Of a stretch of 46,221 nt of DNA, positions 172 through 6,903 are shown piece after piece (positions within the stretch are counted from its first letter, which is position 1; the number at the start of each line of letters is the position of its first letter). Source of the stretch: Gammaproteobacteria bacterium (GTDB lineage Bacteria; Pseudomonadota; Gammaproteobacteria; Steroidobacterales; MnTg04); assembly GCA_027292775.1 (NCBI GenBank), contig JAPUGL010000057.1, positions 1-46,221 of the forward strand. Direction: 5' to 3'. The translations under genes and the position numbers were made by a program. The notes beneath the pieces are model-generated. The model searched no databases, was not told the DNA's origin, and was given only the letters and a program-made list of their open reading frames with translations.

Positions 172-660
172 ATGCCTGGCGAAAGCGGTCTGCCGGCAAC
201 GATCGAGACCCGTGACCAGGCCGTGGCTGCATTCGAGCAGCTGATACTCGCTGCGACGGCTGCGCTGAATATTGTGAGCGACCGGCTGAATCCTGCATTG
301 TTTAATGACCCCGTCCTGATCGAGGCTTTGCGCCAGAAAATTTTACAAAGAAGGCGAATGCTGATCAGGGTTCTTATCCGGCAGCCGCGCCAGCCCGTCA
401 TCAATGCGCCGAGATTTTTTGCCCTGGCCAGACGGCTGGGCAGTAACTTCGAAATGCGTGCAGCGCGGCGGGACACCAGCCTGACTGCATCGCTCATCAT
501 CCGCGACCGGCACTCGATGATTTATCGGCCATCGTTCGAACGTTGGGATGGCCAGCTGATTTCCGCAGACCCGATTGGCATAAAGGAATGGCTGGAAACC
601 TTCGATAGCGCCTGGGACAACGCCAGCGAAACGCCCGAGCTACGCGAAACAAGATTGTAA
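172..660 (+). CDS. DUF7931-like / phospholipase D-like small protein
   Basis: 162 aa ORF directly after purB; residues such as LIIRDRHSMIYRPSFERWDGQLISADPIGIKEW resemble the DUF7931 family. Confidence 0.55.
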   Translation: MPGESGLPATIETRDQAVAAFEQLILAATAALNIVSDRLNPALFNDPVLIEALRQKILQRRRMLIRVLIRQPRQPVINAPRFFALARRLGSNFEMRAARRDTSLTASLIIRDRHSMIYRPSFERWDGQLISADPIGIKEWLETFDSAWDNASETPELRETRL

Positions 661-3200: not shown

Positions 3201-4739
3201 TTATTCGCCGCCGGGCGGATCATCGGCACTAAATGCAGCAGCACCAGTCACTGAAGTCCCCTGGCCGTCGTCCAGCGAATAGCCGAAACCCGCACCTGAA
3301 ACATCGCCGTTTCCATCGCCGGTGAAAAACCCGCTAAGGCTTCCATCGCCCTGGCTAGCCGACCCGTCAGTGGTATCGGTAACGGTAACGTCATCGAATG
3401 AGCCGCCAAAGGTCGCATCCGCGTTGTCGATTGCAATATCGGTCGCCGACGCGCTCCAGATTTCGTTGTTGGAATCCATAGACAGCGAGACATCAGCGTC
3501 AACCGTCTGCCGGTCAAAATCGGCACTCAGGCTCGCGGAACCCAGGGTACCGACGTTGCCCGAATTATCGGTCGGGTTGGTATTACCGACCAGCGTGAAG
3601 CTTGCCGAGCCGGTGGTCGGCAGCACGGGTGTCGGCTGGCCGACAGACCCGGTTACCCAGTGCAGGCTCGAATTCCCGAGATCCTGGTCGGTGCTCGTGC
3701 CGCTGCCATCGATTACGGAAATCGAACCATTGGCCCAGCGACCCCAGCGAATACCGGACGCGGCGTCCTCGCCGCGGTCGAAAATCTCGGCACTGCCGAC
3801 GCTGTAAATGACATCGCTTGTATTGCCTTGGGGATCTGTCGGGATCGGTCCGCCAAACTGAATCAGGTCACCATCGTCGGTCATCAGGACCGATGCATCT
3901 GAACCGGACGTAACGCCGCTGAAATGGTCGGCTGTCGCCAACGGACCGGCTGCAAATCCGATCTGGCCCGACTGTGAGGCCTGGACCTCGTCGCCTTCGG
4001 TCAGGCTTGCCGACTGGCCGCTGCCATCGGTGCCGGAAACGGCTACCTGGACCACTGCGTCGGATTCTTCGCTCTCACCGGCCGAACCGATGCCTGAGGC
4101 GAGTACATCCGCGCCATCGTCCGACATCTCCGGGGCGCTGTCTTCATCCGCTACATAGCCGTACTGGCCGGGACCAAGCTCAAGCGATCCCGCTGCGTTA
4201 GTCAAGACGACGCCGCCTTCCGTTACACCGACATAGAGGCCGATGTTTCCTGGCTCACACGCAGTCTCACAAAAAACCGCATCATAATCTGTTCCGCGTA
4301 TGCCGATCGTAGCGACCGGAGTGCGCACACGGTAAGCGCTTTTATCTTTTTGCCCAATGGCGCCGGTTATTGATCGAAATCCGCCTTTTACCAGCCCAAA
4401 AAAGCTTCGATCCTGGCTATCGGCTACGCCGGCATCGGCATCGGCATCGGAGCCGGCATAGGAAAACTCTTCGATCACGAACTCCGTCGATGGCCTCAGG
4501 GCGATCAGTCCGCCGTCCGCCATTCGCAACTGCACCCGCCCGTTCGCAGCGGTGCTGAAATGATCTCCACTATCGAAGCTCATTCCCTTTACTACTTCCT
4601 GGTGGGTTCCATCCGTGCTATCCAGCCAAGCCTGTCCGAAAACAAACATGACTTTCCCTGCCTCTGCCGAAACAATCATCGGCAGCATCAGCATGGCTGT
4701 CAGGAGTAATCCCTTCGTCAATGCAAAATGTTTATTCAT
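3201..4739 (-). CDS. FecR-domain protein with C-terminal TbpB/Slam-substrate-like beta-barrel region
   Basis: 512 aa; N-terminal signal peptide, FecR-like core (GKVMFVFGQAWLDS...NGRVQLRMADGGLIALRPSTEFVIEEF...VRTPVATIGIRGTDY); C-terminal GSASFTLVG...SLSADFDRQTVDADVSLS...GDGSLSGFFTGDGNGDVSGAGFGYSL...VTGAAAF. Confidence 0.85.
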   Translation of the reverse strand: MNKHFALTKGLLLTAMLMLPMIVSAEAGKVMFVFGQAWLDSTDGTHQEVVKGMSFDSGDHFSTAANGRVQLRMADGGLIALRPSTEFVIEEFSYAGSDADADAGVADSQDRSFFGLVKGGFRSITGAIGQKDKSAYRVRTPVATIGIRGTDYDAVFCETACEPGNIGLYVGVTEGGVVLTNAAGSLELGPGQYGYVADEDSAPEMSDDGADVLASGIGSAGESEESDAVVQVAVSGTDGSGQSASLTEGDEVQASQSGQIGFAAGPLATADHFSGVTSGSDASVLMTDDGDLIQFGGPIPTDPQGNTSDVIYSVGSAEIFDRGEDAASGIRWGRWANGSISVIDGSGTSTDQDLGNSSLHWVTGSVGQPTPVLPTTGSASFTLVGNTNPTDNSGNVGTLGSASLSADFDRQTVDADVSLSMDSNNEIWSASATDIAIDNADATFGGSFDDVTVTDTTDGSASQGDGSLSGFFTGDGNGDVSGAGFGYSLDDGQGTSVTGAAAFSADDPPGGE

Positions 4740-4815
4740 GGTCTTACCTGTCTTCCCGCCTGGTTTGAGGCAATTTTTCCGGCAAGGATAAATTAGGGTA
4801 TTTCCTTAAAAGCGC

Positions 4816-4831
4816 TGTGAACGGCTTCACA
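4816..4831. promoter_or_regulatory. CRP/FNR-type box TGTGA-ACGGCT-TCACA upstream of the FecR-domain gene
   Basis: 10/10 match to TGTGA-N6-TCACA; centre about 85 bp upstream of the ATG at 4739. Confidence 0.7.
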
Positions 4832-4855
4832 CTTGGTAAGACCTTCCCAAAAATA

Positions 4856-4869
4856 TGTTCAATGGAACA
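4856..4869. promoter_or_regulatory. Palindrome TGTTC-AATG-GAACA between the two CRP-like boxes
   Basis: Perfect 5+5 inverted repeat with 4 bp spacer. Confidence 0.35.
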
Positions 4870-4878
4870 CGCTGAATG

Positions 4879-4894
4879 TGTGACTCGCGTCACA
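4879..4894. promoter_or_regulatory. CRP/FNR-type box TGTGA-CTCGCG-TCACA upstream of the FecR-domain gene
   Basis: 10/10 match to TGTGA-N6-TCACA; exactly 63 bp from the box at 4816-4831. Confidence 0.7.
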
Positions 4895-4926: not shown

Positions 4927-6249
4927 CTACCGCCAGAATCGTCTCAGTGACAGGCCCGCGACGTCCCGATCGAAACCGAATATTTCGACGTTGGAATGAT
5001 TCTTTTGATGTGAGTAATAGTAATTTAACAACCAGTGCCGACTGACCTTCCAGGACATGCGTAGCGTGATTTGGCTCAGCGTGTCCCGGCGGTCGTTATT
5101 TACCTGTTGAGGGAAAAAAATATCGTCATATTCAGACCGGCTTACGCCCACCATCGTCTGGAATCTGACATTGCTATTGAAATTCCAGGCAACGAATACC
5201 TGCAAGCCGGCGATGTAACGGCTGTATTTCGAACTCGATAGTCGGGCATTGTCGCGGCCGAGCAACACTGTCGCACCTGTATTACCCAACCCCGAAGCGC
5301 CAAAAACCCGGCTGATCGTGGACCCGATAAGGAACTGGTCGACATCCCGAACATCCTGATTGTCGGCGAACCGAATCATGGTCAGTTTTCCTAGCACACC
5401 GAAATAGGTTTTCCTGTTCAGTTTGTGTTCGTAATCCCCTTCCAGACTGATGCCCTGGCTGTTTAATTCGCCATCGGTATTCAACCGATAACCCATCAGG
5501 CCGCCGGAGTATTGAATCGTGTCGCCGACCTTCCTGATTCGTGAGCGAATGCTACCCAGGGTCGTATTTACGAAGGAAGCATCCGGATAATTTTTTTGTC
5601 CCAGATCCGCTCGCGTGGTCCAGATCAGTCCTCTTTCGAAGGGCCGTTCAATCTCGCCTCCCAACAAATATGAAGTATAAGGGCTGTCAGTCTCCCTGCT
5701 TTCAGGATCAAGCAAAAAGCCAAGAAACGTACTGGTCTCTGTCGCCGCATTGGCATTGCTGTCAAAACCCGCGGCAATCTGCACGTACGACTGGTAACGG
5801 TTTTTCCCCGGTTGTGCCCTGCTGTCGATTCGAGCCAGTAGATTCCGAATTTCCCGTCGCGCTGCCGGTGGTGGATTCTCGTCACGAATTATCAGCAAAT
5901 GGAATCTTGCTTCCACCAAATTCTCTTCGACAAAATATGCGCGGGCAAGATCAAGACGCGCCGCGGCGAAAGATGGATCATTGTTGACGGTCCGTTGCAA
6001 AGCGAAAATCGCCTTGCCGGTATGACCTGTTTCGAGCAACGCCAGCCCGAACAGGTAATCGAACCGGCTGTTACCGGCCAGCTGCGGTTCGATGGGCGAA
6101 AGAATTTCGAGCGCCTGCGCAGGCTGCCCCACGTTCAACATTTCCTGTGCTTTTCGCAGACTTTCGTCGGAGGCCAAAGCCACGGCGCTATACGCCAGGG
6201 CCAGCATGGCCATCAGCGATTTGAAAATCCGATCAGAATTGGATGTCAT
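4927..6249 (-). CDS. TPR plus outer-membrane beta-barrel protein, Slam-like (DUF560)
   Basis: 440 aa; signal peptide, TPR-like helices (QALEILSPIE...GHTGKAIFALQRTVNNDPSFAAARLDLARAYFVEENLVEARFHL), then a beta-rich C-terminal half ending in FDRDVAGLSLRRFWR. Confidence 0.75.
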   Translation of the reverse strand: MTSNSDRIFKSLMAMLALAYSAVALASDESLRKAQEMLNVGQPAQALEILSPIEPQLAGNSRFDYLFGLALLETGHTGKAIFALQRTVNNDPSFAAARLDLARAYFVEENLVEARFHLLIIRDENPPPAARREIRNLLARIDSRAQPGKNRYQSYVQIAAGFDSNANAATETSTFLGFLLDPESRETDSPYTSYLLGGEIERPFERGLIWTTRADLGQKNYPDASFVNTTLGSIRSRIRKVGDTIQYSGGLMGYRLNTDGELNSQGISLEGDYEHKLNRKTYFGVLGKLTMIRFADNQDVRDVDQFLIGSTISRVFGASGLGNTGATVLLGRDNARLSSSKYSRYIAGLQVFVAWNFNSNVRFQTMVGVSRSEYDDIFFPQQVNNDRRDTLSQITLRMSWKVSRHWLLNYYYSHQKNHSNVEIFGFDRDVAGLSLRRFWR

Positions 6250-6347: not shown

Positions 6348-6363
6348 CGTGAAGGAATTCACA
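6348..6363. promoter_or_regulatory. CRP/FNR-like box CGTGA-AGGAAT-TCACA between the divergent Slam-like and nudJ genes
   Basis: 9/10 match to TGTGA-N6-TCACA; 99-114 bp upstream of the Slam-like start and 64-79 bp upstream of nudJ. Confidence 0.5.
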
Positions 6364-6426: not shown

Positions 6427-6903
6427 ATGTCGTGGATTCCTCATGTAACAGTCGCTGCGGTCATCCACAAGGATGGCCGTTTTTTATTGGTCGAAGAGTT
6501 CGCCAACGATCGAGAGGTTTTGAATCAGCCTGCCGGTCATCTCGATCCAGGCGAGAGCCTGGTCGAGGCGGTGGTTCGTGAAACGCTGGAAGAAACAGCC
6601 TGGCGTTTCGAGCCAAAAGCTCTATGCGGCATATACCAGTGGACCCATCCTGAGAAACAAAAGACTTTTATTCGGTTTGCCTTTACCGGTGATGTCCTTG
6701 AGCATCTTCCGGGTTGCGATCTGGATGCCGGCATCATACGTGCGGTCTGGCTGGACAGAGGGCAGGTGCTTGCCCGTTCCGGCCAACTTCGCAGCCCAAT
6801 GGTCATGCGTTGTATCGATGACTATCTCGCGGGCCAACGGTTTCCCCTGAATCTGGTAAGACATCTGCCATTGACCGGCAAAAATCGCGAGCAGGCTTCC
6901 TAA
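6427..6903 (+). CDS. nudJ: NUDIX hydrolase, NudJ-like
   Basis: Nudix box GHLDPGESLVEAVVRETLEETAW; immediately upstream of mnmA as in E. coli. Confidence 0.85.
   Translation: MSWIPHVTVAAVIHKDGRFLLVEEFANDREVLNQPAGHLDPGESLVEAVVRETLEETAWRFEPKALCGIYQWTHPEKQKTFIRFAFTGDVLEHLPGCDLDAGIIRAVWLDRGQVLARSGQLRSPMVMRCIDDYLAGQRFPLNLVRHLPLTGKNREQAS

Follow-up and report, generated by a model that had tools for sequence, protein, structure and literature searches.

The sequence of this locus very probably encodes a class II cAMP-CRP promoter of the Vfr type, in which a perfect palindromic box at 4816-4831 would activate the minus-strand FecR-barrel gene (3201-4739, 512 aa), a second box further upstream would tune the response, and the neighbouring pore gene would be placed under the same control. 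The locus is well supported, on comparative grounds, as a textbook CRP switch ahead of a gene whose product is probably exported to the cell surface. What began as two palindromes has become a well-tested promoter prediction for an uncultured lineage, with the same box and the same 21-nt spacing in five families.

CRP-type boxes in the window and in the genome

We use "the window" for the whole 46,221-nucleotide stretch of DNA that was analysed. The first-pass annotation had reported two perfect TGTGA-N6-TCACA boxes 63 bp apart, and both were found exactly as described. On the minus strand, the proximal box TGTGAACGGCTTCACA (4816-4831) and the distal box TGTGACTCGCGTCACA (4879-4894) are exact palindromes that match the motif at 10 of 10 positions, with a start-to-start distance of 63 bp; relative to the predicted start their centres lie at about -40.5, a class II position, and at about -103.5. 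There is no further exact site in the 46 kb of the window. The argument that two boxes within 80 bp are unlikely to arise by chance also holds, as shuffling gives a mean of 0.03 exact sites per window and only 1 of 100 shuffles contained two or more. We ruled out that the boxes serve a plus-strand gene, the next of which begins at 6427, about 1.5 kb away.

The commonness of the motif was evaluated by a pattern search of the genome to which the window belongs (2.07 Mb in 194 contigs, 79% complete). The motif proved rare and well in excess of its control: exact sites number 11 genome-wide against about 1.5 expected from the base composition of the window, the reversed control motif has none, and allowing up to one mismatch gives 45 sites against 12 for the control. 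Pairs of exact sites at most 100 bp apart number six, with about 0.1 expected, and two of the six (on contigs C110 and C164) sit in near-duplicate regions and may count once. Closely spaced CRP boxes are a recurrent feature of this genome. The C110 and C164 pairs (L003, 1501-1556; L008, 335-390) consist of exact boxes 40 bp apart, and lie about 30 bp ahead of a small, conserved minus-strand ORF (about 56 aa, beginning MQTK), which is flanked by fabH and by a gene for a 192-aa hypothetical protein.

Promoter geometry at the proximal box

A minus-strand TAATTT at 4790-4795 had been proposed as the -10 element, placing the proximal box near -41 as in class II promoters. The hexamer is present, it lies inside a 13-nt block (ATACCCTAATTTA) that shows no variation among five genomes of the genus, and it predicts a start near 4783; the class II placement stands as well, at -40.5 in the window and -41.5 in the relatives. 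The spacing was derived from 19 orthologous promoters of families f1, f16, f5, f14 and f4, by taking the box nearest the start codon and reading the hexamer at every offset. TAnnnT is found 21 nt from the box in 17 of the 19, which are mutually related and so do not represent 17 independent events, and at any other offset in no more than 7. The flanks of these promoters have diverged and the distance from box to -10 element is unchanged. With a 21-nt gap the box is centred at -41.5, as is typical of class II promoters. In the window the gap is 20 nt, one nucleotide short, giving -40.5, which we regard as still within the class II range; FNR sites centred at -40.5 have been tabulated (PMC3688515). 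The hexamers 16-18 nt upstream of TAATTT in the window are unlike TTGACA, so we see no -35-like element. The sequence has several hallmarks of a class II promoter: a consensus box, a fixed distance to the -10 element, no -35 hexamer and a CRP/Vfr protein encoded in the genome. We suggest that CRP bound at about -41 would replace the missing -35 element and recruit RNA polymerase to TAATTT, with transcription predicted to start near 4783 on the minus strand and to run into the FecR-barrel gene.

Among the other exact sites of the genome, a class II -10 element is clear only for a small-RNA promoter (box-21-TATAAA), and the geometry is possible at one more, on the minus strand of L011. For most of the others no convincing -10 element stands 19-23 nt from the box; these may serve repression, belong to class I promoters or be unused.

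A candidate small RNA near bolA

A candidate small RNA under CRP control, about 100 nt long, lies near bolA on contig C83 (L002; L095, about 406-500, minus strand), preceded by one of the 11 exact CRP sites. The layout is that of a CRP box, 21 nt, a -10 element, hairpins and an intrinsic terminator, and relatives are found at L096-L124. A covariance model matches 51 of the 196 genomes of the order, although the weakest of these matches may be due to chance. For the 30 best loci (families f1, f5 and f7), bolA is in the flank in every case, and in 29 a box with 0-1 mismatch is followed, after 21 nt, by a hexamer whose first letters are TA; the paired positions of the RNA covary. It has no match in Rfam 15 and, judged from these features, is apparently an undescribed family of CRP-controlled small RNAs. 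This RNA gene is unrelated to the FecR-barrel gene, and the shared geometry backs the class II reading and supports the 21-nt rule. The fixed spacing offers a simple means of finding CRP targets in the order, and has already exposed this small-RNA family.

Conservation of the promoter region

Each of the four other family genomes that were searched has an orthologue of the FecR-barrel gene (83-87% identical), and relatives occur in 32 of the 196 genomes of the order, the window's own included. All 16 columns of the proximal box are invariant in five genomes of the genus. By contrast, 24 of 44 columns are invariant in the leader and 72 of 133 at the end of the upstream gene, and the 32 columns immediately beyond the distal box include 6 that are invariant. 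A box occupies the same place in the promoters of orthologues from four other families, with the same geometry, so the proximal box passes the conservation check that the first-pass annotation had called for. The distal box passes in part: its spacing is kept at 62-63 bp, but its sequence is only partly retained, matching at 9/10, 9/10, 9/10 and 8/10 positions in the four relatives.

The sequence between the boxes contains a second conserved element (4833-4863, minus strand), which reads ATTGAACATATTTTTGGGAAGGT followed by cttACCAA and includes GGTnnnACC. Within the genus it is as conserved as the CRP box, with 23 contiguous invariant columns and then ACCAA in the five genomes. The A/T-rich block, directly upstream of the class II site, may be a contact for the alpha-CTD of RNA polymerase or the operator of a second regulator. 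The TGTTC-N4-GAACA palindrome noted between the boxes does occur, at 4856-4869. Relatives retain the GAACA half alone; since the TGTTC half varies among them, we have ruled the palindrome out as a conserved operator.

The block raises a possible, though doubtful, arrangement in which the CRP sites flank the site of a second regulator (GGTnnnACC, 4833-4850) that acts as an anti-activator or a co-activator, such that the gene would integrate cAMP with another signal. In MnTg04, the GGT and ACC are constant and changes are limited to the three spacer bases, the invariant stretch of 23 nt plus ACCAA lies between the boxes in all five genomes, and a genome-wide search for the 18-bp near-palindrome at 4833-4850 gives a single mismatch-free occurrence. 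There is also a precedent, as two CRP sites flank a CytR site at deoP2 (PMC5957442). Set against this, the block is not seen in the promoters of the other families, and an A/T-rich stretch directly ahead of a class II site might be no more than the alpha-CTD contact. An intervening regulator would refine the class II CRP reading rather than replace it.

In the class II promoter as we propose it, a second CRP dimer at the distal box (about -103.5) would most likely boost or tune activation, in the manner of promoters that carry tandem CRP sites. The claim that both boxes lie on the same face of the DNA is borne out, the second site being in helical phase with the first (63 bp in the window and 62-63 bp in the relatives). 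Family f16 also has a second box, 32-33 bp upstream of the first at about -74, as compared with about -103.5 in the window's genus. The opposite effect, in which the upstream dimer limits activation and so lowers expression, is unlikely. It would follow FNR at the yfiD promoter, where the sites are at -40.5 and -93.5 (PMC3688515), and the distal box is weaker in the relatives than in the window; however, the 63-bp phasing and the second box of f16 fit cooperative activation equally well or better. We consider that the distal box is more likely to raise expression than to lower it.

The regulator

Searches of the genome with the Crp and HTH_Crp_2 families return one and the same protein, encoded on contig C175. 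Its best relatives in the PDB are Vfr of Pseudomonas aeruginosa (1.7e-77) and CRP of E. coli, and in the alignment it shares with Vfr both the CSREM recognition helix and the PDAMTHPDGMQIK loop, taken to be activating region 1. From the reading of the ORFs, the gene adjoins speD-like and trpG-like genes, presumably the same neighbourhood as that of vfr in Pseudomonas. The genome also contains two class III cyclase domains. On this comparison, the C175 protein is a Vfr/CRP orthologue and the sole CRP/FNR-type regulator found in the 79%-complete genome.

Recognition of the boxes by an FNR-type protein, or by another member of the CRP family, instead of cAMP-CRP is very improbable. The incompleteness of the genome means that such a protein could be missing, but the two HTH family searches find the Vfr orthologue alone, and TGTGA-N6-TCACA is the CRP motif, whereas FNR reads TTGAT-N4-ATCAA. 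There is next to no probability that the boxes are functionless chance palindromes, as the 1.5 or so exact sites that composition alone would give the genome are outweighed by conservation, fixed spacing and clustering, all of which are contrary, and the phylogenetic footprint refutes a chance origin for the proximal box. We retain cAMP-CRP as the predicted regulator.

The FecR-barrel protein and the pore

The product of the regulated gene has a FecR domain (PF04773, 2.7e-9) followed, in the structural model, by a handle and an eight-strand barrel like those of TbpB, HphA and fHbp. Residues 250-512 have no Pfam match, and their fold matches NHBA, fHbp, TbpB, HpuA and HphA with Z scores of 11-13.6. 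These proteins are secreted or surface-exposed and use Slam-type pores for export. In the model, the FecR domain (residues 24-134, a low-confidence part) matches the solved structure of a "cell surface anchoring domain" (5ix9, Z 12.3 over 72 residues). Another C-terminal part of the FecR-barrel gene, 90% identical, lies at the end of a contig in this genome (G000:C45:2-676; L025, L035); either the gene is present twice or the assembly mixes strains.

A role for the protein as an anti-sigma regulator of the FecIRA type is unsupported by its fold or by its neighbours. The genes around it encode the pore, an Ig/HYR protein, a NUDIX protein and tRNA thiolase proteins; the adjacent ECF sigma factor and TonB receptor that characterise FecIRA are not among them at this locus. 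The protein that the annotation named "FecR-barrel" is better described as FecR-headed, with a barrel like that of type 11 secretion system (T11SS) cargo, and encoded beside its likely exporter.

The upstream gene (4927-6249, minus strand, 440 aa; Pfam TPR and BBP2_2) is predicted to encode a T11SS/Slam-like pore. The AlphaFold2 model has a TPR domain and 14 outer-membrane barrel strands, with a mean pLDDT of 79.8. Against the Slam profiles the protein scores below threshold (20.6 bits for TPR_Slam, where the cut-off is 35.2), and SlipAM (PF04575) is matched, at up to 8e-5, by three of six homologues. Foldseek does not decide membership of the Slam family because its list for the pore consists of general porins together with the TPR-barrel exporters BcsC and PelB, and includes no Slam structure. 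Based on the models, the interpretation we favour for the two genes is a T11SS-like pore paired with a FecR-headed cargo.

The pore gene has a CRP box of its own, TGTGAATTCCTTCACG (6348-6363, minus strand, 9/10), which stands 21 nt before TATTCT (6326-6321) and is centred at -41.5. Box and 21-nt spacing are kept in all five genomes of the genus; pore homologues in f16, f5 and f4 have upstream boxes with 0-1 mismatch, and there the -10 geometry is less uniform. CRP would thus activate the pore gene separately, through this second class II promoter, and since the pore gene has such a promoter, cAMP-CRP probably switches on the pore and its FecR-headed cargo together. In the paralogous pairs at L027, L028, L054, L057 and L058 the FecR gene abuts the pore gene and has no box, as expected if the two are co-transcribed. 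Abutting paralogous pore/FecR-barrel genes in which no CRP box precedes the FecR gene are also seen at L033 and L034, as at L054, L057 and L058.

The arrangement would couple a probable type 11 secretion pair, whose cargo is headed by FecR, to cAMP signalling in a little-studied kind of secretion locus. A survey of T11SS cargo makes no mention of FecR (PMC12282271), and our literature search joining CRP control, type 11 secretion and FecR cargo found no paper that combines them. We put forward tentatively, and with rather less than even confidence, the fuller reading in which cAMP-CRP controls a type-11-like pair from separate class II promoters, the cargo having a new architecture (a FecR domain joined to a handle and barrel like those of TbpB) and, in the genus, a CRP-X-CRP promoter in which X is a second regulator.

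Comparison with known systems

The proposed promoter resembles the class II CRP promoters of E. coli and the Vfr promoters of Pseudomonas in having a box near -41.5 and a -10 element without a -35 element, and in the presence of a Vfr/CRP orthologue with a conserved recognition helix. It differs in its target genes and in the position of the window's copy at -40.5. With tandem (class III) promoters such as deoP2 it shares a site near -41, a second site far upstream and a conserved sequence between the two; however, the second site is at about -103.5, not -93.5, and the element in between does not correspond to a known CytR site. The pair of genes differs from type 11 secretion (Slam) loci in its FecR-headed cargo, in a pore that scores below the Pfam Slam cut-off and in the predicted CRP control. 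It has the same organisation, a gene for a TPR and 14-strand barrel protein beside one whose product carries a handle and an eight-strand barrel, and our model gives this product a C-terminal handle and barrel like those of TbpB, HphA or fHbp, the cargo of Slam loci.
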